Source: Bacteroidaceae bacterium (GTDB lineage: Bacteria > Bacteroidota > Bacteroidia > Bacteroidales > Bacteroidaceae). Taken from it: a DNA stretch of 45,170 bases. Position 1 is the stretch's first letter. Each line of letters starts with the position of its first letter. Shown here one piece after another: positions 1 through 11,758 of the stretch. The position numbers and the translations under genes were made by a program. Where the stretch lies: assembly GCA_017465905.1 (NCBI GenBank), contig JAFTVE010000051.1, positions 1-45,170 of the forward strand, written 5' to 3'. The notes beneath the pieces were generated by a model. It was not told where the DNA came from, made no database searches, and was given only the letters and a program-made list of their open reading frames with translations.

Positions 1-545
1 AGCACGTGGGAGTGCTCGGGATGATAGTTATCATTAGGCCCATAGAGGTTGGTAGGCATCACACTGATAAAATCGGTGCCGTACTGACGGTTGAGGTATT
101 CACAATACTTCAGGCCTGAGATCTTGGCCAAGGCATAGGCCTCGTTGGTAGGTTCCAAAGCAGAGGTGAGCAGGCAGCTCTCGGGCATGGGCTGAGGAGC
201 CAAGCGCGGATAGATGCAGGAGGAGCCGAGGAACTCGAGCTTCTTGCAGCCGTTACGCCATGCAGCATGGATGACATTCATCTCGAGCATCATGTTGTCG
301 TACATGAAGTCGGCCAACGCACTCTGGTTGGCAATGATGCCGCCTACCTTGGCGGCAGCCAAGAAAACGTATTCAGGCTTTTCTTCGGTGAAGAACATCT
401 CGACCTCATCCTGACGACAGAGGTCAAGCTCAGCATGTGCACGAGTGATGATGTTGGTGTAGCCTTGACGCTGCAGCTCACGCACAATGGCAGAGCCTAC
501 CATACCGCGGTGACCAGCTACGTATATTTTACTAGTTTTTTCCAT
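1..545 (-). CDS. fcl: GDP-L-fucose synthase, N-terminal part (runs off left edge)
   Basis: Converts GDP-4-keto-6-deoxy-mannose to GDP-L-fucose with NADPH, supplying fucose for surface glycans; cytoplasmic short-chain dehydrogenase/reductase. The reading frame starts at an ATG whose complement ends at base 545 and stays open for 181 codons to the window edge, so about the C-terminal 130 residues are missing. The Rossmann glycine motif G-x2-G-x2-G is at residues 11-17 (AGHRGMVG). The catalytic pair is Tyr137/Lys141 (YALAK), with a serine in LGSSCIYP upstream; these match the Ser107/Tyr136/Lys140 spacing of the E. coli enzyme. It follows the WecA-like gene on the same strand after 222 bp and is read as part of the same polysaccharide operon. 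The usual partner GDP-mannose dehydratase (gmd) is not in the window. Confidence 0.93.
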
Positions 546-767: not shown

Positions 768-1934
768 CTACTTGCCATCCATGAGGTGCTGCATCCAAAG
801 GAAGAAGCCTTCGCGCTCGATATGGGAGAACTTACCGATGCGTTGCATGAAACGCCAGGCGGCATTGTCACGAACCTGGCAACGACGCATAAGCCCATAG
901 AAGCCAAAGGTGCTGAGAAGCGCCATGGCGACTACGACATAGAGCTGCACATCGATGCCAGCGCCACATTTGTAGGCGATATACCATACAAGGATGTTCA
1001 GAAGGTTAATCAGAAGGATACTGATGGTGGTGCCAATGTGGGAGAAGCCCATATCGATGAACAGGTGATGAAGGTGGGTCTTGTCGGGATGGAAGGGAGA
1101 GGTGCCACGAAGCATACGCATGCTCATCACACGCACGGTATCGAATACGGGAATGGAGAGGATGGCGAGGGTCAAAGGTACCAGGCCCATACCCCAATCG
1201 ACATAGACACAACAGAAGGTTTCAGACTTGAGCATATTGAGCACGAAAATGCTCATCACCGTGCCCATAACGAGGGTGCCACCATCGCCTATGAACATCT
1301 TACTGGTGCGCCCGAAGACATTGTGGAAGAAGAAGGGGATGAGCGAAGCGGCACAAGTGCAGGCAAGCATGACCATGGTGATGTCGCCCACAAAGCCAAA
1401 GAATACGCCAAAGATGGCACAGGCCATGATGCTGTAGCCACTGCTATATCCATCAACGCCATCGATAAGGTTAACGGCATTGATGAGACCGACAACAGTG
1501 ATCACCGTGAGGGGAATGCTCACCCATAGGGAGACTTCCTGCAGTCCCCACAGACCATGGAAGCTGTTGATGCTATAGCCACAGGTGTACATAAGCATCA
1601 GTGCAATGCCTATCTCGATAAGGAAACGCACCGCCGGAGAGAGGTCCATGATGTCGTCAATGGTTCCTACATAGAGCATCACCGACATGGCAAGAACGAT
1701 GGTGAAGAGGCTGCTGCAGTCGAAGAAGAGCTGGCAGATGCTCAACGACACCAAGATGCCGAACATAATAGCCATACCGCCCAACACGGGAACAGGAATA
1801 CGTTGGAGCTTGCGGGCATCGGGGTTGTCGACGATGTTCTTCGTCAGAGCGATATGAAGCATCCTGGGATATACCCATATGGCTGCCAACATGGATACCA
1901 GAAAGGGGACAATGACATGAAAGATGAAAGACAT
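768..1934 (-). CDS. WecA/TagO-like undecaprenyl-phosphate sugar-1-phosphate transferase
   Basis: Polytopic inner-membrane enzyme of the MraY/WecA family. It would transfer a HexNAc-1-phosphate (or related sugar) from a UDP-sugar to undecaprenyl phosphate, the first committed step of a lipid-linked surface polysaccharide. At 388 residues it has the family length and about ten hydrophobic segments. Family motifs are in order: the aspartate-rich loop VGTIDDIMD (about residues 89-97), NAVNLIDGVDG (about 152-162), FIGDGGTLVMG (about 214-224), and the His-rich loop HPDKTHLHHL (about 281-290). It starts 27 bp after the UpxZ-like gene, on the same strand. Motifs alone do not fix the sugar. MraY itself is unlikely, because the neighbours are capsule genes rather than the dcw cluster. 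Confidence 0.88.
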   Translation of the reverse strand: MSFIFHVIVPFLVSMLAAIWVYPRMLHIALTKNIVDNPDARKLQRIPVPVLGGMAIMFGILVSLSICQLFFDCSSLFTIVLAMSVMLYVGTIDDIMDLSPAVRFLIEIGIALMLMYTCGYSINSFHGLWGLQEVSLWVSIPLTVITVVGLINAVNLIDGVDGYSSGYSIMACAIFGVFFGFVGDITMVMLACTCAASLIPFFFHNVFGRTSKMFIGDGGTLVMGTVMSIFVLNMLKSETFCCVYVDWGMGLVPLTLAILSIPVFDTVRVMSMRMLRGTSPFHPDKTHLHHLFIDMGFSHIGTTISILLINLLNILVWYIAYKCGAGIDVQLYVVVAMALLSTFGFYGLMRRCQVRDNAAWRFMQRIGKFSHIEREGFFLWMQHLMDGK

Positions 1935-1961: not shown

Positions 1962-2258
1962 TCAATCATTAATAAAGGGGTACCAGGGATCATCGGTGGG
2001 GAGATGATAGCCATAGGAGGCTACACGCATGAGCTCAACGATGGTGTGGTGCAGAGCAGGATCGGAGGTGGCAGAATCATACGATGCCAAATAGGGATCG
2101 ACAAGAGCCATAGTCAGTGCCAAGCACTGCTCCTCATCGGACTCTGAAGAGAAACCTCCCTGAAGGTACAATGCGGTATGCATAGCTATCAGGGCTTCGG
2201 CACGTGCCTGAAGTGAGGCGGTGGGGTCGTAGGACTTATATAATTGAGCGTAAGACAT
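1962..2258 (-). CDS. UpxZ-like regulator of polysaccharide loci (tentative)
   Basis: A 98-residue soluble protein without signal peptide or membrane segment, between the NusG-like gene and the WecA-like gene. In Bacteroides capsule loci that slot holds upxZ, whose product inhibits the antiterminators of other capsule loci so that one capsule is made at a time. The segment EEQCLALTMAL resembles the conserved acidic-then-CLALLM stretch I recall for UpxZ proteins. It is shorter than most UpxZ members (roughly 120-160 residues). The assignment rests on position plus a short local similarity, so a different small regulator is possible. It is acidic and helical in character. Confidence 0.55.
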   Translation of the reverse strand: MSYAQLYKSYDPTASLQARAEALIAMHTALYLQGGFSSESDEEQCLALTMALVDPYLASYDSATSDPALHHTIVELMRVASYGYHLPTDDPWYPFIND

Positions 2259-2333
2259 GATGAATTCTGAATTCTAAATTATGAATTGTGAATTGTGAGG
2301 TAGGAGTCAACGCCAACAGCCAACAGCCAAAAG
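2259..2333. repeat. Two kinds of short tandem repeat between upxY-like and upxZ-like genes
   Basis: Bases 2261-2299 are made of GAATTCTGAATT / GAATTGTGAATT units. Bases 2312-2330 are CCAACAGCCAACAGCC-type heptamer repeats that run almost to the upxY-like stop codon. Neither encodes protein. Similar units occur elsewhere in the window. Confidence 0.6.
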
Positions 2334-2888
2334 CTAAAGTACTTGTATCAAGTCGGGGTGTACCTCGGCAGCTACAGCCAAAAGGCTGGGGAGCTGGACT
2401 ATGACACGACGGTTGCGAAGGCCCTGCACCTTGACAAAGATGCCCTCTACCCCATCGAAGGGACCTCCGATGATGCGCACGGGGGTGCCACGGCGAAGGT
2501 TGAGCTCTTCGGGACGGAAATAGAGAAGGCGCTCGTTATGGCTATCGCTCACTCGAATGAACTGGGACATCTGCACATCGGGAACCAAGATGGGCTCATT
2601 GCGACCATTGACTGGGCGAGTCAAGTACTGCACAATAGGCAACTGGGGCTTGAGCTCACGCATCATGGGCTGGGAAGTGCGGACAAACAGCAAATTATGA
2701 ATGGCAGGCATCAACTCGCGTGACTTGACTCCGTTGCGACCAGTGATAATCTCATGGCGCATGGGAACGAAGGTTTCGATACCCTGCTCAGAAAACCAGT
2801 CGCGTGCAACAAGCTCTCTGTGGTAAGGGGCACTCATGGCATACCATACCAAAGGGTCAGCATACGAATCTTCAGAAATCAATGTCAC
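2334..2888 (-). CDS. UpxY-type NusG-family transcription antiterminator
   Basis: A 184-residue NusG paralogue. The N-terminal NGN domain (about residues 12-115) begins with the typical WYAMSAPYHRE segment, where NusG proteins read W-Y-x-x-x-x-x-x-x-x-E. The C-terminal KOW domain (about 130-184) contains GTPVRIIGGPFDGVEGIFVKV. It is the first gene of the polysaccharide operon, and this is exactly where Bacteroides loci carry upxY, which acts on the 5' leader of its own operon to prevent premature termination. The start is 124 bp from the nearer crossover site of the upstream invertible segment. With the promoter in the present orientation, no promoter pointing into this gene is visible. A housekeeping NusG is excluded by context (no secE or rplK nearby) and by sequence style. 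Confidence 0.87.
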   Translation of the reverse strand: MTLISEDSYADPLVWYAMSAPYHRELVARDWFSEQGIETFVPMRHEIITGRNGVKSRELMPAIHNLLFVRTSQPMMRELKPQLPIVQYLTRPVNGRNEPILVPDVQMSQFIRVSDSHNERLLYFRPEELNLRRGTPVRIIGGPFDGVEGIFVKVQGLRNRRVIVQLPSLLAVAAEVHPDLIQVL

Positions 2889-3007
2889 AAACAGTCCGAT
2901 TTTTCAGTTATTACAGCGAAAAGGATGTTCTCTTGGCTCCTGACAACTAACAAAATCTGTTTGTTATCAGCGAATTACAGCCCCAGTTTGTTCTTTTCGC
3001 ACTTTTC

Positions 3008-3038
3008 ATAATAAATCTCTTAGCAAGAGATTTATTAT
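3008..3038. repeat. Left crossover site, 31-bp palindrome
   Basis: Two perfect 14-bp arms (ATAATAAATCTCTT and its reverse complement) around the 3-bp centre AGC. The 21 bp from 3012 to 3032 are repeated inverted at 3215-3235. The dyad form suits two recombinase monomers binding either side of a short asymmetric spacer. In the ON orientation it would also form a hairpin at the very 5' end of the capsule mRNA. Confidence 0.85.
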
Positions 3039-3073
3039 AAAATATTTATAACGAAATGATACTCAACATTTTA

Positions 3074-3082
3074 CCCCCCCCC
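3074..3082. repeat. Nine-cytosine homopolymer inside the invertible segment
   Basis: An uninterrupted run of nine C. After inversion it would lie just upstream of the -33 element (TTTG would map to 3077-3080 in the flipped numbering, with the C run moved to 3165-3173). Length variation by slippage is possible but not shown. Confidence 0.6.
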
Positions 3083-3166
3083 TACAGGTTTTCTCTTACA
3101 AATATCAGAACCTTTCCCCGAGTTCTTTTTCAAATCGCAATGAATGGCAAAAAAACCAATAAATAA

Positions 3167-3197
3167 TTTGTAGTTACGATATTTATGTATACTTTTG
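3167..3197 (+). promoter_or_regulatory. Bacteroidetes-type promoter within invertible segment
   Basis: -33 TTTG at 3167-3170 and -7 TACTTTTG at 3190-3197 with 19-bp spacing, a full match to the sigma-ABfr consensus. As read here it fires rightward into the 3' end of the recombinase gene, antisense to it. Confidence 0.8.
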
Positions 3198-3214
3198 TGC
3201 ATCGAACTTTTATT

Positions 3215-3235
3215 AATCTCTTGCTAAGAGATTTA
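3215..3235. repeat. Right crossover site
   Basis: Exact reverse complement of 3012-3032. Its own dyad arms are shorter (8 bp, AATCTCTT/AAGAGATT around GCT) than those of the left site, so the two sites are not equally palindromic outside the shared 21 bp. Confidence 0.82.
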
Positions 3236-3281
3236 CTACTATTCTATTTCCATTTACCCTAAACAGGCGATTTTTCTGAAG

Positions 3282-4229
3282 TTACAACATGTTCAATATC
3301 CGCTTATTAGCCTTATCTATCTCCAGATAATTGAAAGATGAGAGATAAATTTGCGTTGTCAACTCAGAATCGTGTCCCATTCCTTCACTAATAACAGAGA
3401 TGGGAATATGCGATGCACGGGCGATACTGGCCCATGAATGACGCGCCACATACATGGTGAGTGATGCATCGAACTTTATAATCTGCCCGATACGCTTGAG
3501 TTTATTGCACAACCACACCGAACGCGTCTTGTATTGCTGACGTTCGTCCACACCCTCGTTCTCGATAAGTGGCAACAGATAACGAGCTCCCTTCACATGA
3601 TAGCGGTCTACAATCTCCTGCATGCAACGCTCCCAACGGATGGAGAGGAGCTGCCCTGTCTTGCGGCGGGTATATGTCAAGCGGCCGTTGTAAAGGTTAT
3701 CTGCAGTGAGGAAGGCCATATCAATCAACGACATGCCACGAGTATAGAAACTGAATAGGAACATGTCACGAGCAAAAGCCAAGTCACAGTTGCCGGAAAG
3801 GTCCAGATTCTTGACCAGACGGACTTGTCTGAGTGTAATGGCTCGCTTGGCGGTCTTATCAACACCCGTATAAACCTGCCTGAAGGGATGACGCTGCTCA
3901 ACGAGACCCTTCTCCACTGCCTTATTATAGGCTGCACGCAAGATACGCATATAAAAGGAGGAGGTGTTCATCGCGACACCCCTCAGACGCAGATAGACCT
4001 CATAATGCAGGACTAACGTCTCGTCAATCTCGTCAAGATAGATGTCGCGCCCTCCATTGAAACGCGCAATGCTGTTCAACGCCGCCGTGTAGGTCTCGGC
4101 TGTACGTTCACGTCCACAATAGCGTAGCTGATCTATCAACTTATGCATGAAACCAAACAGTGTTTCTCGACAGGGTCGGCACTTCTCTTTACAGAGTACA
4201 CCCCTAAAATTTACCTGAATTACCGTCAT
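3282..4229 (-). CDS. Tyrosine site-specific recombinase, probable promoter invertase
   Basis: 315 residues. An N-terminal SAM-like core-binding domain (about 25-115) is followed by the catalytic domain. Catalytic features in order: Arg in the box FYTRGMSLIDMAFL (about 164-177); Lys in the beta-hairpin YTRRKTGQ; box II YVARHSWASIA (about 260-270), where the usual first His of H-x-x-R is Tyr; GMGHDSELTTQIYL with the second His and the Tyr nucleophile (about 284-297). This Y-V-A-R-H form is, as I recall, common among Bacteroides shufflon and inverting recombinases. The gene sits beside a 21-bp inverted-repeat pair flanking a promoter, so the local switch is its likely substrate. No mobile-element ends or cargo are seen. 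Confidence 0.9.
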   Translation of the reverse strand: MTVIQVNFRGVLCKEKCRPCRETLFGFMHKLIDQLRYCGRERTAETYTAALNSIARFNGGRDIYLDEIDETLVLHYEVYLRLRGVAMNTSSFYMRILRAAYNKAVEKGLVEQRHPFRQVYTGVDKTAKRAITLRQVRLVKNLDLSGNCDLAFARDMFLFSFYTRGMSLIDMAFLTADNLYNGRLTYTRRKTGQLLSIRWERCMQEIVDRYHVKGARYLLPLIENEGVDERQQYKTRSVWLCNKLKRIGQIIKFDASLTMYVARHSWASIARASHIPISVISEGMGHDSELTTQIYLSSFNYLEIDKANKRILNML

Positions 4230-4240
4230 GTTTTTTTCGG

Positions 4241-4248
4241 CAAAATTA
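4241..4248 (-). promoter_or_regulatory. Possible -7 element of recombinase gene
   Basis: CAAAATTA on the plus strand reads TAATTTTG on the minus strand, a TAnnTTTG match 12 bp before the start codon at 4229. No TTTG lies at the proper distance upstream, so support is partial. Confidence 0.35.
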
Positions 4249-4285
4249 GAATGTATTTGGATACATCGGACGTATGCAAAAGAAT

Positions 4286-4313
4286 CAGGGGCGAGCCGTG
4301 TGGCTCGCCCCTG
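4286..4313 (-). terminator. Intrinsic terminator of the 1363-residue surface protein gene
   Basis: Perfect 12-bp arms (CAGGGGCGAGCC and reverse complement) around a 4-nt loop, 24 bp after the stop of the 4338-8429 gene. On the minus strand it is followed by a T-rich stretch (TTCTTTTG). Confidence 0.75.
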
Positions 4314-4337
4314 ACTTGTATATTCAGATAAGACTCG

Positions 4338-7300
4338 TTACTTTACCAGAACTTTCTGTACTTCGACTGTTCCGTCGGTGCGGAAGATGCGGAAGATATT
4401 GATGCCAGACTGAGGAGTAGCAATGCGTACACCATCGAGCGTATAAATCTCGGTAGCAAGTACGGGAGCTACTGACTCCATATCTTGGATACCCTCACCT
4501 TCGCCTTCGGACTTACCAAGGTAGTAGAGATGCCATGCACCCACAACCTCGTAGTCATTGCCCAGGATCTCCGTCTTGGAGAGTCCGATGCGTGCCTTAC
4601 CATCGGCACCTACTTCGAACTGAAGCTTGTTGAGGTAGTGGCCCTGGTTGAAGAACTCAACGGTAGGTGTGGTTCCATCAGGAGCAAACATGCCGTTGGG
4701 GAGAGTGTAGCACTTCACACCATAATCAGTTGTTGAAGCATCTTCATAGAGGTTCATCACCTTGGTCTCGTACTTATTATCAGATGTGGTAGCGTATAGG
4801 GTGGTGAGATGAGTCTCTTCACCGCTCTCCTTACGGTTCCACTCTTCGTCATAATAGCCTGCACGGTAGTAGGTGTGTACGGTCACTTCATACTTACCCT
4901 CGGGAAGACCGACGAGGTCTTGGTAAAGGTCGATAGCTGCACGGTTGTAGCTTACGGTGTTCTGCTTATATCCGTTCATCGGACTGGTTGTCCAACCTTC
5001 GATAACGCCAGTAGCCTTGTCGCCCTTGGCGGGGTCAAAGTCGGGATTGATGATGAGCGAGGTCATATCAACAGGCTCGGGATCGGTGGGTTCAACCTCA
5101 CCGAGGTAATAGAGTCTCCATTCGCCTACTACCTCATAGTCATTGGCAAAGATTTCGGTCTTCTCGAGTCCGATGCGTGCCTTACCATCCTCACCCACAA
5201 CAAACTCCAGCTCGTTGAGGTAGTGGCCCTGGTTGAAGAACTCAACGGTAGATGATGTTCCGTCAGGTGCAAACATTCCATTGGCAAGGGTGTAGCACTT
5301 AACGCCGTAGTCGGTGGTGGCTGCATCTTCATAGAGGTTCTTGACCTTCACCTCGAACTTCTCGTCAGCTGTAGCGGCATAGAGGGTGGTCAGATGTGTC
5401 TCTTCGCCACTTTCCTTACGGTTCCACTCTTCGTCATAATAGCCTGCACGGTAGTAGGTCTGTACGGTAACCTTATACTTACCCGGTGTGAGGCCCACGA
5501 GGTCCTGATAAAGGGTAATCTCAGCACGGTTATAGCTTACGGTATTCTGTTTGTAGCCATTCATGGCGCTGGTGGTCCAGCCTTCGATAACGCCTGTTCC
5601 CTTGTCGCCCTTTGCGGGGTCAAAGTTATTGTTGATGATGAGTGAAGTTACATCAACAGGTTCATCGCCACCACCACTCATATCGGGAATCTTAAGTTCT
5701 ACGACAGCGAGGTTACACTCCTCAACCTTGGCTGTAGCCTGGGCATTGTCGTATGAGCCAGCCTCATAAGCTGCAGCAACCTCGGCATAGAGTGTCTTGG
5801 CAGCCTTCACGGCATCGGCCGATGCGGTTGCAGCATACTCGTCGATAGCTGCAGCCAGGTTAGCGATTGCGGTATTGAGCTTCATATAGGTATCAGTACC
5901 TGCAGCGACAGCCTCCATTGCTTGCTTGAGCACGATGAGGGCATCGTAGCGACTCTCATCGGCTGCAGCCTCAGCAGCAGAAATAGCAGCCTGCAGTGCA
6001 TCCAATTCAGGCTTGCCGGCCTTGTTTGCAAGGAGTGCCTGAGCTTCAGGAACAGTAGCAGCAATCACCTCGCCCAGAATTTCAACATTCTTGGCGCGAT
6101 AAATAAGGTTGGCATTGGTCCACCATGCACGGCTACCGTCAGCATAACGGAGGTCGTTGCGGATACCAACACGCAGAGTACCATCGGTTACGAGGCCATA
6201 GACTGTCTGCACATAGCGTCCATCGGTAAATGCCTTATAGGCACTGGCTGCACTGTTGGGAACATAGCCCTTCTCAGGATACTTATAGTCCTCGGCATGA
6301 GCTGATGTGTCGCTGGGGCAGTCGAGCACTGAGTTCATCAGCTTATCGTAGCTATTAATATAGGTATATGCCTTGTACTGCTCAGTACCTGTCAGTGCGG
6401 TATAGTCGGCTGCAAGGTAGCAAGCATTTACGGTGAACTCATAGAGTCCGTTGGGAAGGTTGGTGAGGTTCTGATGAACGTCGAACACCATATTGGGGCC
6501 TTCACCTACGGGATTATCGCCAGTAGGGAAAGTAACGCCGGGCTGTGAGGTCCAACCACCTTCCTCGGCAAACGAAGCATTCTTCAGCAGGTTAGAGCAG
6601 TTGGTGCCGTCAACAAGTGCATTGGCAATGGCATCGGCAAGCAGTTTGTCGAGGTGGGCAATCTCAGCCACAACCAGCTCGGCACTCAGATGTCCGTTCT
6701 CCAGGATATAGAGACCTGTACCATTAGGATAGAGCTCGGTGACCTCCTCAGAGAGGAAGAGATAATCGGAGAGGTTATACATGGCATCCTCATACTCGAT
6801 ATCGGGGTTGATAGTCTCCATATAGGCGCATGCCTCCTGATACTTGGTATAGAAGAGGGCATAAGCCTCGATGCTGGCTTCGAGTGCATTGATAGCCTCA
6901 TCAAAAGCCGCGATGGCTGTACCTATCGACGCTGCATCCGTAGCAGCAGCCAAAGCATTGCGGGCTGCGATATAGGCCTCGAAGGCTGCTTTGTGATGGT
7001 GCACTTCATTCTCGTCGAAGAAGGTTTCATAGTCAACCGACTTGCCCATGTAATCCGAAGCGAAGTAAGCAAAAGCATCGTCACTATTGCCCATGTAGTG
7101 AAGCTGCCAGTTGTCGAAGAGTGTCCAGTCGCCACCAATCTGTCCCTCTTTCTTGAGGCCGATGGTGAGCTTGCCGTCACTTACGTAGCAGAGCAAGGTG
7201 TTGCCCAAGTACTTTCCTGCTTGCATATAGGCTGCAGCAGTAGCCATATCGTTGGGGATGTAGCCATAGCTATTGGTCGAAGTGTTAGAACCTATCGCCT

Positions 7301-8597: not shown

Positions 8598-11255
8598 ATG
8601 AAAAAGAAGAACTTTTTATCTATGGCCATGACACTGTGCCTGACAGCATCAGTGACAGCACAAACAGTAAACGTATCGCCAGTTCCACAACGATTGGTGT
8701 GGGGCGACAAGGCATTTGACCAACCCAAGAGCATCGTCATCAAAGGAGCCGACGAGGCCGACGCCGACGCCGTAGCCCTGCTGCGCAACCACTTTGCCGA
8801 GGAGGGCAAGGGCATCAAGGTTGTCATCGGCGAGCGCGGCGACAAGGCCGTGAAGGCATACGACAAGCAGATTCCCCACAAGGTGGAGGGCTACTATATT
8901 AATATAGGTAAGAAACAGGTGGTGATTGCCGGCAACGACGAGGCTGGAACCTACTACGGTGTGCAGACCTTCCTGCAGATGGCTTCGCAGCCCGAGGTGA
9001 TGACCGCCGAGGTGAAGGACTGGCCCGACGTGCTGGAGCGCGGCGTGGTGGAGGGCTTCTACGGCAACCCCTGGAGCCACAAGGACCGTCTGCGCCAGTT
9101 CGACTTCTACGGACGCAACAAGATGAACGTATATATCTATGGTCCCAAGGACGACCCCTACCACCGCAACCAGTGGCGTGAGGCCTACCCTGCCGACGAG
9201 GCACAGCGCATCAGCGAACTGGCCAAGGCGGCGGCACAGAACAAGGTTGACTTCGTATGGGCCATGCACCCGGGTGGCGATATCCAGTGGAACGAGGCCG
9301 ACCTGAAGAGTTCAGTACAGAAGCTGGAGTGGATGTATGCCCTCGGTGTACGTGCCTTTGCCATCTTCTTCGACGACATCTTCGGTGCCGAGCAGTCGAA
9401 GGGCATCAAGCAGGCCGAGTATATGAACGCGCTGAACCGCGAGTTTGTGCACAAGCACCCCGACGTGGCCCCCCTCATCCTCTGCCCCACACAGTACAAC
9501 AAGAGCTGGTCGGGCGGTTCGTACCTCTCTGACCTGGGCACCACGATGGACAAGGATATCCGCATCATGTGGACAGGCGCTACCGTGGTGGACATGATCA
9601 ACAAGACCGACATGGACTGGATCAACGCACAGATACGGCGCAACGCCTACATCTGGCTCAACTACCCGGTGAACGACTTCTGCATCGACCACATGCTGAT
9701 GGGTCCCACCTACGGCAACGACCTCGACATAGCGCCACAGCTGAGCGGCTTCGTGTCAAACCCCATGGAGTATGCCGAGGCATCAAAAGTATCGCTCTAC
9801 AGCATTGCCGACTACACCTGGAACATGGATGCCTACTCCTCTGTAGCCTCTTGGGAGCGTGCACTGACGGAGCTGATGCCCGCGCATGTAGATGCCTTCC
9901 GACTATTCTGCCAGCACAATATCGACCTTGGCCCCACAGGCCACGGTCTGCGCCGCAAGGACGAGTCGAAAGCCTTCAAGCAGGCCTCCGAGACATTCAA
10001 CGCCGCCATGGCCGATGGCTACGATGCCGCTGCCGTAGAGGCCATGACACAGGAGTTCACCGCCATGGTGACTGCCGCCGACGAGCTGTTGGCCTCAACC
10101 GAAGAGCCCGAGATGATAGCCGAGATAAAGCCCTGGTTAGAGGTGATGAAGCTCATCGGCCAACGCGGCCAGCTGACCATGCTGCTCCATACATTGCTTG
10201 ATAATGGTAATGAAAGGAGCTTCATCGCCACCTACGAAAAGATGCTGCAGCTGGAGCAAGCACAGAAGGCCATCCTCTCGCGTAACTTCGAAGGCTCCAT
10301 CAAGAAGCCCAATCCCACCGTAGCCAATGAGGTGGTAGGCCCCTTCATCAAGGCCAACACCAAGAACCTCATCCGCGAATACAAGAGCAAGCACACCTAC
10401 CGCAAGGAGATATTCCCTGCCGACCTCATCGAGGAGGGACGCTATTATATAAAGGTGAACGGACGCTGGCTCACCGACGTGAATGCCAACCCCGACCGCA
10501 CAGGTGACCACCCCGTATTCCAGGCCGAGGAGGATGTCATCAACCCGCAGCGTCAGGAGTGGAACATCGCCATCGACCCCACCACCGAGCGCTACAAAAT
10601 CACCAATGCACAGGACGGCCGCTACATCAACGAGATGGGCAACTTCTGGAGCGACAAAAGCCTCAACCCCTACGATCCCGCATGGCACTCATTCAATATT
10701 TACCGCTTGAATGGCAAGTATGCCATCCAGAGGGCAGGCAATGCCGGTGGCCTCATGTGGAGTGCCGATGAGGAGCGCATCAAGCCCACGGCAGAGAAGA
10801 ACATCCGCTACGAGCACTTCATCTTCGAGCTCATCCCCGTAGGCGGGAAAGCCACCGAGTGCCCTACCTTCGAGCCCGGTGCAGCCGTGCGCATCGCCGA
10901 CGCCGAGGGACGCTACCTCACCAACACCACAGTGAACGGCGTGGGAGGCACACCCGAGTTTATGGAGCGAAAGGAGGACAGCAGCCAACTGTGGCACCTC
11001 AACCTCGTGGTCGAGACAGGACGCTTCAACCTCATCAGTGCTGCCGACGGCCGCTACGTGAACGAAATCTGCAACTTCGGCACCAACGCATACAATCCCC
11101 TCTGGAACACCTACGTGCTGACCGAGCAGAACGGCAAGTATGCCATCCGCAACGCCGGCAACGGAGGCTCACAGTTCTGGATTGTCAACGGCAAGCACCC
11201 CGCAACAGCCAACATCCCAGTAGCAGAAGCCTATCAGTTTACGATTGAGAAATAA
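8598..11255 (+). CDS. GH84 beta-N-acetylglucosaminidase with C-terminal beta-trefoil-like region
   Basis: Secreted or periplasmic family-84 glycoside hydrolase (hyaluronidase/O-GlcNAcase type), acting on terminal beta-linked GlcNAc by substrate-assisted catalysis. 885 residues with a signal peptide (about 1-22, ending SVTAQ). An N-terminal GH20b-like domain (about 23-140) ends in GTYYGVQTFLQ. The catalytic barrel starts at ERGVVEGFYGNPWSH (about 149-163) and carries the family's catalytic aspartate pair, Asp259-Asp260, in FFDDIFG. Substrate-site segments WTGATVV and WLNYPVND follow. A helical domain covers about 440-600. The last 280 residues show two copies of a Y-I/L-x-(15-25)-W pattern with RYINEMGNF and RYVNEICNF, like ricin-type trefoils. 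This extension makes it longer than the 737-residue B. thetaiotaomicron enzyme. Host mucin or glycosaminoglycan foraging is inferred. Confidence 0.93.
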   Translation: MKKKNFLSMAMTLCLTASVTAQTVNVSPVPQRLVWGDKAFDQPKSIVIKGADEADADAVALLRNHFAEEGKGIKVVIGERGDKAVKAYDKQIPHKVEGYYINIGKKQVVIAGNDEAGTYYGVQTFLQMASQPEVMTAEVKDWPDVLERGVVEGFYGNPWSHKDRLRQFDFYGRNKMNVYIYGPKDDPYHRNQWREAYPADEAQRISELAKAAAQNKVDFVWAMHPGGDIQWNEADLKSSVQKLEWMYALGVRAFAIFFDDIFGAEQSKGIKQAEYMNALNREFVHKHPDVAPLILCPTQYNKSWSGGSYLSDLGTTMDKDIRIMWTGATVVDMINKTDMDWINAQIRRNAYIWLNYPVNDFCIDHMLMGPTYGNDLDIAPQLSGFVSNPMEYAEASKVSLYSIADYTWNMDAYSSVASWERALTELMPAHVDAFRLFCQHNIDLGPTGHGLRRKDESKAFKQASETFNAAMADGYDAAAVEAMTQEFTAMVTAADELLASTEEPEMIAEIKPWLEVMKLIGQRGQLTMLLHTLLDNGNERSFIATYEKMLQLEQAQKAILSRNFEGSIKKPNPTVANEVVGPFIKANTKNLIREYKSKHTYRKEIFPADLIEEGRYYIKVNGRWLTDVNANPDRTGDHPVFQAEEDVINPQRQEWNIAIDPTTERYKITNAQDGRYINEMGNFWSDKSLNPYDPAWHSFNIYRLNGKYAIQRAGNAGGLMWSADEERIKPTAEKNIRYEHFIFELIPVGGKATECPTFEPGAAVRIADAEGRYLTNTTVNGVGGTPEFMERKEDSSQLWHLNLVVETGRFNLISAADGRYVNEICNFGTNAYNPLWNTYVLTEQNGKYAIRNAGNGGSQFWIVNGKHPATANIPVAEAYQFTIEK

Positions 11256-11260
11256 CCCCC

Positions 11261-11396
11261 TATTGGCGAAAGTTCATAAATCGGTTGGCTTTGGCAAGCA
11301 TAATGTGGATTTTTGTACATTCAGCAACGCAACTCCTGTACAAATTTACAACTCTTTCTCTGCCGAAGCCAACCGATTTATGAACTTTCGCCAATA
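11261..11396. repeat. Long inverted repeat, 31-bp perfect arms, directly after GH84 stop
   Basis: Arms 11261-11291 and 11366-11396 are exact reverse complements, starting TATTGGCGAAAG and ending CTTTCGCCAATA. One mismatch further in, four more pairs form, giving 36 bp. The 64-nt centre contains a further nested pair (TTTGTACA/TGTACAAA). It starts 6 bp after the GH84 stop codon. It could be a large terminator, a MITE-like element or a recombination substrate. No good promoter is seen in the centre on either strand. Confidence 0.85.
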
Positions 11397-11450
11397 GAAA
11401 AAGGAAAAAACGAACAGCCCTTTTTGAAAAAAGGGAAATGTGTTCTCCAG

Positions 11451-11490
11451 AAAACGAATAGCCCATTTCCGAAAAAGGGCTATTCGTTTT
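11451..11490. terminator. Strong hairpin with T tract, probable terminator
   Basis: Perfect 14-bp arms AAAACGAATAGCCC / GGGCTATTCGTTTT with a 12-nt loop, ending in TTTTTCTTTG. The upstream segment 11407-11425 is nearly identical to the left arm and can pair with 11472-11490 instead. Confidence 0.6.
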
Positions 11491-11758
11491 TCTTTGTTTA
11501 TAGGCTTCAAACTCTTGAAATGCAAGGCTCCGATCAAAATGTCAGAGCCTTGTAATAGAAAAATTCTCTTTGTCCAATTTGAAAAATGCATGTATGCAAT
11601 TCAAAAACCACCTTTTTCGTTCTCCCCAAATCTGACGTTTTGCTACTGACATAGCCGATTGGGTGACAATATGATAGATATATCACACTGCCTCATATAG
11701 CTTTCATTCCGACGCGTGTAGCAAATCATAGGATTTGTCTCCCAATCTGCGACAAAAC

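Follow-up and report, generated by a model that had tools for sequence, protein, structure and literature searches.

An invertible promoter candidate in front of upxY

The start of this contig raises the question of whether a Bacteroidaceae polysaccharide operon is switched on and off by inversion of its promoter and, if so, by which enzyme. The window, that is, the entire stretch of DNA analyzed, is a whole contig of 45,170 bases from a 2.84-Mb genome in 54 contigs that is 79.7% complete. On its minus strand, a tyrosine recombinase gene is followed by the putative switch, upxY, a 98-amino-acid ORF, a gene for a WecA/MraY-type transferase, and a truncated epimerase gene. Judged from its sequence and from comparison with related loci, we consider it highly probable (roughly 0.88) that this locus is an inverton, in which an invertible promoter governs a polysaccharide operon of the UpxY type.

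A sequence-only reading of this DNA had described a perfect 21-bp inverted repeat, and positions 3012 to 3032 are indeed the reverse complement of positions 3215 to 3235 in 21 of 21 letters; the arms grow to 27 nt at 93% identity once mismatches are allowed. The segment between them (3033 to 3214) measures 182 bp, as had been stated, and is the predicted invertible segment; segments between homologous sites occur in both orientations elsewhere. Beyond the earlier description, each arm is itself nearly palindromic (AATCTCTT-AGC-AAGAGATT), so that direction is set by the three central bases alone. The core sites are TCTCTT-AGC-AAGAGA in the left arm (3016 to 3030) and TCTCTT-GCT-AAGAGA in the right arm (3217 to 3231). 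Their centers, AGC and GCT, are complementary and lie 201 bases apart, and the first core site is located 51 bases past the end of the recombinase ORF.

When the window was shuffled 20 times by a Markov procedure, perfect inverted repeats of at least 16 bp within 1 kb numbered 0.0 on average, and those of 14 bp numbered 0.1. The core TCTCTTNNNAAGAGA with up to one mismatch was found 11 times in the genome versus 10 times for the reversed control; exact copies number two, namely, the switch pair, and no other two lie on one contig. The window itself holds two perfect repeats of at least 13 bp with copies 60 to 700 bp apart, the switch repeat and a 32-bp repeat at 11260 to 11397. The latter region contains a 37-nt inverted repeat (97%) that, together with a hairpin at 11451 to 11490, is part of a dispersed palindromic repeat of REP-like appearance, with 79 matches to positions 11250 to 11500 in the same genome.

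The Bacteroidetes-type promoter TTTG-N19-TACTTTTG at 3167 to 3197 (plus strand) is the single match to TTTG-N17-23-TANNTTTG on both strands of 2201 to 4400 and, as claimed before, is directed away from upxY, facing the recombinase gene (OFF). A relaxed promoter pattern had no minus-strand match in 2201 to 4400 and hence none from the repeat to upxY on the coding strand. Promoter orientation thus upholds the view that the locus was captured OFF, but the additional claim that it is silent is a prediction: a scan from the recombinase stop to upxY found no terminator-like site, so that transcripts of the recombinase gene could run on into upxY. It is also conceivable that the OFF-state promoter, which faces the 3' end of the recombinase gene, dampens the recombinase by antisense transcription. 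The leader that would link the left arm to upxY (2889 to 3011, minus strand) was folded in search of an antitermination signal and gave a z score of -1.66, which is not significant, with 18 of 200 shuffles folding equally well; a scan against Rfam returned a single match far below the gathering score, which we disregarded.

Recombinase gene and polysaccharide locus

The recombinase gene (3282 to 4229, minus strand) is complete and ends 46 bp outside the repeat (3236 to 3281), in agreement with the earlier reading. It encodes a tyrosine recombinase of 315 amino acids, the probable inverting enzyme, that matches PF13102 with 72 bits; its score with PF00589 (22.6 bits) is under the cut-off of 27.1. 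Residues R164, K190, R263, H286, and Y295, which we take to be the catalytic residues, are invariant across 15 aligned relatives. There are seven matches to this protein in its own genome at E ≤ 0.001, itself included, and the others are at most 32% identical. Across the family, 182 of 399 genomes have homologues at E ≤ 1e-30. At 4283 to 4316, a strong hairpin resembling a bidirectional terminator lies between the recombinase gene and the preceding gene, which encodes a protein of 1,363 amino acids that matched no Pfam or NCBIfam family.

On the other side of the switch, upxY (2334 to 2888, minus strand, GTG start) encodes a transcription antiterminator of 184 amino acids (NF033644, 144.2 bits, cut-off 100). 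The 98-amino-acid ORF that follows (1962 to 2258, minus strand) matched no Pfam or NCBIfam family and presumably occupies the place where upxZ often sits. An undecaprenyl-phosphate sugar transferase of the WecA/MraY type and 388 amino acids is encoded next (768 to 1934, minus strand; PF00953, 99.9 bits); its best NCBIfam match, TIGR02380, reached 147 bits, under the cut-off of 326. The contig starts inside the fourth gene, and most of the polysaccharide locus, with any genes for a flippase, a polymerase, and further transferases, therefore lies off the contig. This gene encodes a truncated NAD-dependent epimerase/dehydratase (3 to 545, minus strand; PF01370, 147.6 bits) that, from the look of its sequence, we take to be possibly a GDP-L-fucose synthase. 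The earlier description of the polysaccharide as fucose containing would depend on this single incomplete gene.

The locus shows three features of its class, with inverted repeats around a Bacteroidetes promoter 5' of upxY, an adjacent gene for a tyrosine recombinase that is intact, and a gene for an initiating sugar-phosphate transferase (PF00953) soon after upxY. We compared 20 upxY-like loci of the genus, of which, besides that of the window, 15 were measurable and 4 gave no alignment. None of the 15 had an upstream inverted repeat of at least 13 bp within up to 1 kb; repeats of 11 to 12 bp were present at 3 of them, one with just 335 bases available. Among the nine loci with at least 43% identity, five had an exact-consensus promoter facing upxY. 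Since the other measurable loci lack the repeat and several have a fixed promoter, the switch seems to be a module that a single capsule locus has gained and not a trait of the whole genus. With this locus, a bet-hedging device known from other bacteria extends to a Bacteroidaceae genus that has been little studied.

Site pairs beside recombinase relatives

To define the site family, we fetched the best 80 of at least 557 recombinase relatives from the genome collection; 17 loci with fewer than 700 bases downstream were left out, and 63 were tested. Two TCTCTT-NNN-AAGAGA sites in switch geometry were found downstream of the recombinase gene in 44 of these 63 loci, without complementary centers being required, and the remaining 19 had no downstream site pair. 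The same geometry test upstream of the relatives, used as a control, was positive in 0 of 79 cases. Although the center rule had not been applied, all 44 loci with two sites included a pair with complementary centers; four of them (L196, L202, L212, and L214) also show further site combinations with unmatched centers.

With the window counted and the other loci again taken from the best 80 of at least 557 relatives, a complementary-centered site pair is present in 49 of 81 loci. In these 49 pairs, the agreement of the centers follows from the pairing rule itself, and the arms are near-invariant, partly because the search pattern chose the sites. Most commonly, the first site lies 29 bases past the recombinase stop and the site centers are 173 to 174 bases apart. 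The centers fall into 22 of 32 possible classes. In several loci, such as L142, L171, L213, and L215, one arm is duplicated with the same center.

Evidence for inversion at homologous sites

One footprint of inversion was observed in a genome of the same genus (G007), the recombinase of which is 70% identical to that of the window. Two 132-base segments between GCC-centered sites match at 125 of 132 positions (~95%) when one of them is inverted and at 76 positions at best otherwise, and the 160 bases of the left flank are collinear (142 matches). One promoter, with one mismatch to the consensus, is directed at its gene, and the other is directed away from its gene. These near-identical invertible promoters in opposite orientations (L071, 9175 to 9336, and L072, 9927 to 10088) lie at a great distance from the recombinase homologue and precede two genes for secreted-looking proteins that share a near-identical C-terminal end. 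For a third pair of this genome, with centers CGG/CCG, scanning both directions revealed no promoter. The G007 recombinase (L138) has no site pair in the 4,993 bases read downstream, and since none lies beside it, action in trans on the site pairs of this genome is likely.

A second case comes from the pMMCAT-type plasmids, of which 12 of 20 records were examined for orientation. In NZ_CP072238.1, the UpxY-proximal segment is inverted, whereas the other 11 share one arrangement; inverting this interval in silico left a single difference in 3,903 bases. This is also the one record split in two pieces among the 18 that cover at least 80% of the query. As a caveat, passages of the article in which pMMCAT received its name state that ambiguous invertible regions were partly corrected by hand (PMC8102008). 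Homologous segments also align on opposite strands across genomes, as in L151 with L175 and L183 with L187.

Assigning orientation by the best promoter near each end, we scored 39 of the 49 cassettes (the window plus loci from the best 80 of at least 557 relatives) as OFF and 10 as ON. For the 22 of them with a clear promoter score, the numbers were 20 and 2, respectively, and the window is a clear OFF case. Contigs end within 500 bases downstream of the recombinase gene in 16 of the best 80 of at least 557 relatives and upstream in 0 of 80. This asymmetry is as expected if mixed orientations break assemblies, and repeats or variable cargo may contribute to it. For the window locus, no DNA match to the region was found in 18 other genomes of the genus, and the homologue with 96% identity in genome G018 sits at a contig end. 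The exact 21-mer arm was absent from the viral contigs searched, a set from which records very near the genome of the window may be left out.

Comparison with known systems

The switch is of an already known type, namely, a phase-variable UpxY polysaccharide locus with a local tyrosine recombinase. The closest counterpart is the locus on the plasmid pMMCAT of Bacteroides and Parabacteroides (NZ_CP072253.1 and near-identical records; the name is given in passages of PMC8102008), in which recombinase, TCTCTT-type switch, UpxY, and MraY-family transferase follow each other in the order seen in the window. Its recombinase is 52.8% identical to that of the window over 94% of the latter. The two loci differ in that pMMCAT has two tandem switches with different centers and the window has one, in that the window has the 98-amino-acid ORF between upxY and the transferase gene, and in that the window is a contig of a metagenome-assembled genome with an unassigned replicon. 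Two pMMCAT records (L240 and L241, 4946 to 6275 in each), both among those counted for orientation, carry a transposase gene and a hypothetical gene between recombinase and switch.

Three further systems were compared through excerpts of the respective articles. Tsr19/BF2766 of B. fragilis is a tyrosine recombinase that flips a local polysaccharide promoter as well as a distant one (PMC4747536, PMC3090145). Together with IVp-I, it resembles the window in combining a local tyrosine recombinase with a polysaccharide-operon promoter that is often OFF, and differs in that its operon starts with other polysaccharide genes and in the distant target. The class IP-ARG of the Bacteroidales has an invertase gene directly followed by an invertible promoter, and upxY and wecA come soon after it, as in the window, but carries other cargo and resides on conjugative elements (PMC8748976). 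For both systems, the comparison is one of published descriptions. The Mpi-controlled capsule promoters of B. fragilis likewise precede operons starting with upxY-type regulators, whereas Mpi is a serine recombinase that acts in trans on ARACGTTCGTN repeats (PMC8375218). The repeat of the window reads TAAATCTCTTAGCAAGAGATT instead, and its neighbor is a tyrosine recombinase, which led us to set Mpi-type switching aside. Of the two routes named by the sequence-only reading, flipping by Mpi or by local tyrosine recombinases, the second is therefore retained and the first is dropped, Mpi being a serine enzyme with a different repeat in the parts consulted of PMC8375218 and PMC4747536. The central claim of that reading, an invertible promoter before upxY that faces away from it, is backed by the shared anatomy, the inversion footprints at homologous sites, and the published loci as excerpted from PMC13114119 and PMC8748976.

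Proposed mechanism and alternative explanations

We propose that the adjacent tyrosine recombinase would bind both TCTCTT...AAGAGA sites and pair them, and that strands would be exchanged within a short overlap centered on the matched bases (probably TT-AGC-AA), so that the 182-bp segment is turned around. As assembled, the promoter would drive transcription into the 3' part of the recombinase gene. Once inverted, it would instead drive transcription across the left site and into upxY, with a leader of about 156 nt, a length that includes an assumed start site. The UpxY product would then carry the polymerase through the operon by antitermination. We infer both the activity of this recombinase and the inversion of the window copy.

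Inversion by a recombinase encoded elsewhere, with the adjacent gene a passenger or directed at another target, is unlikely, given that this gene is complete, keeps the invariant residues, and belongs to a group linked to the site type in 44 of 63 loci (best 80 of at least 557 relatives). The genome does encode the other matches among the seven noted above, which speak for this alternative, and their identity of at most 32% speaks against it. Elsewhere, such a division of labor is suggested by G007, where the site pairs are not beside a recombinase homologue, and by P. vulgatus CL10, where the upxY promoter inverts despite a defective adjacent recombinase, according to part of PMC13114119.

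We assign still less weight to a relic that formerly inverted and is now fixed with its promoter facing away. The predominance of OFF cassettes (39 of 49, the window among them) would fit a relic, and so would the flipped form of the window copy not being found in the 18 genomes of the genus or the viral contigs; functional systems can be biased toward OFF as well, however, IVp-I being mostly OFF in culture (excerpt of PMC4747536), and the window retains a repeat that is perfect over 21 bp, a full-consensus promoter, and an intact recombinase ORF. That the repeat is a palindrome of some other kind, for instance a terminator or what is left of an attachment site, without any inversion appears extremely improbable: a single arm can form a hairpin, but no terminator match was obtained at the repeat, repeats of such length average 0.0 in the shuffles, the switch pair is unique in its genome, and the site is common to recombinase-linked loci in many genomes. 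An inverton served by its own adjacent recombinase is thus our preferred reading.

The three-base center as a putative pairing address

The comparison of many switches suggests that the center acts as a pairing label. As three bases are never their own reverse complement, the center gives the symmetric site its direction, and matched partners would consequently invert, whereas unmatched neighbors would ignore each other. In a scan of 12 largely complete genomes, three contained site pairs, three had one lone site each, and six had none; all 28 pairs in the first three have complementary centers. Tandem switches use different centers in both independent arrangements found, counting non-overlapping pairs, namely, in pMMCAT and in a P. 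massiliensis plasmid. In the latter (OY726003.1, L227, 5900 to 6436), tandem switches TTC/GAA and CGT/ACG follow one recombinase gene. A strict rule of one address per locus within a genome is contradicted by the center AGT, which recurs in G252 (5 of 11 pairs), G292 (5 of 8), and G095 (9 of 9).

We tentatively put forward, at somewhat less than even odds, that a cassette spread throughout the Bacteroidales combines the shared site TCTCTT-NNN-AAGAGA with a three-base center serving as pairing address and direction, and that this module has been placed before cargo as varied as operons for capsules, genes for surface proteins, and helicases of phage defense. It is established that matched bases in the overlap are required by tyrosine recombinases. 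The address rule is a sharp, testable form of this known principle and not a new one; as overlap homology is already standard, the surprise lies in compactness and spread. Bacteroidota repeat motifs were published by Jiang et al. 2019, as stated in a passage of PMC11892184, which also reports statistical links of inverton groups to invertase groups. Among the papers listed in our literature searches, we found no description of the three-base center, which does not establish its absence from print. The newer points are the center as a pairing label and the occurrence of the same cassette before DrmD-like defense helicases. A fixed palindrome with a variable three-base center would permit switches and their likely enzymes to be found from sequence alone; it would predict which sites recombine together, flag defense operons that may be phase variable, and offer a rule, open to testing, for designing inversion switches that are orthogonal to each other.

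Cargo of the cassettes

Cargo was defined mechanically as the first ORF of at least 150 amino acids past the switch, and 39 of the 48 fetched pair loci (from the best 80 of at least 557 relatives) qualified. In these 39 loci (L139 to L216), cargo included SNF2 helicases matching DISARM DrmD models (7 loci), DUF3575 proteins (6 loci), UpxY (1 locus), and one each of SusC and the restriction-type families DUF6079 and BPTD_3080, along with many ORFs that had no family match. The cassettes before DrmD-like helicases (7 of 39) and before single restriction-type proteins suggest that some anti-phage operons may be phase variable. The sole other upxY-linked cassette among the 39 is that of Dysgonomonas mossii (L204, 6912 to 7841). 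It has the same center pair, GCT/AGC, as the window, which could reflect either chance or common origin.
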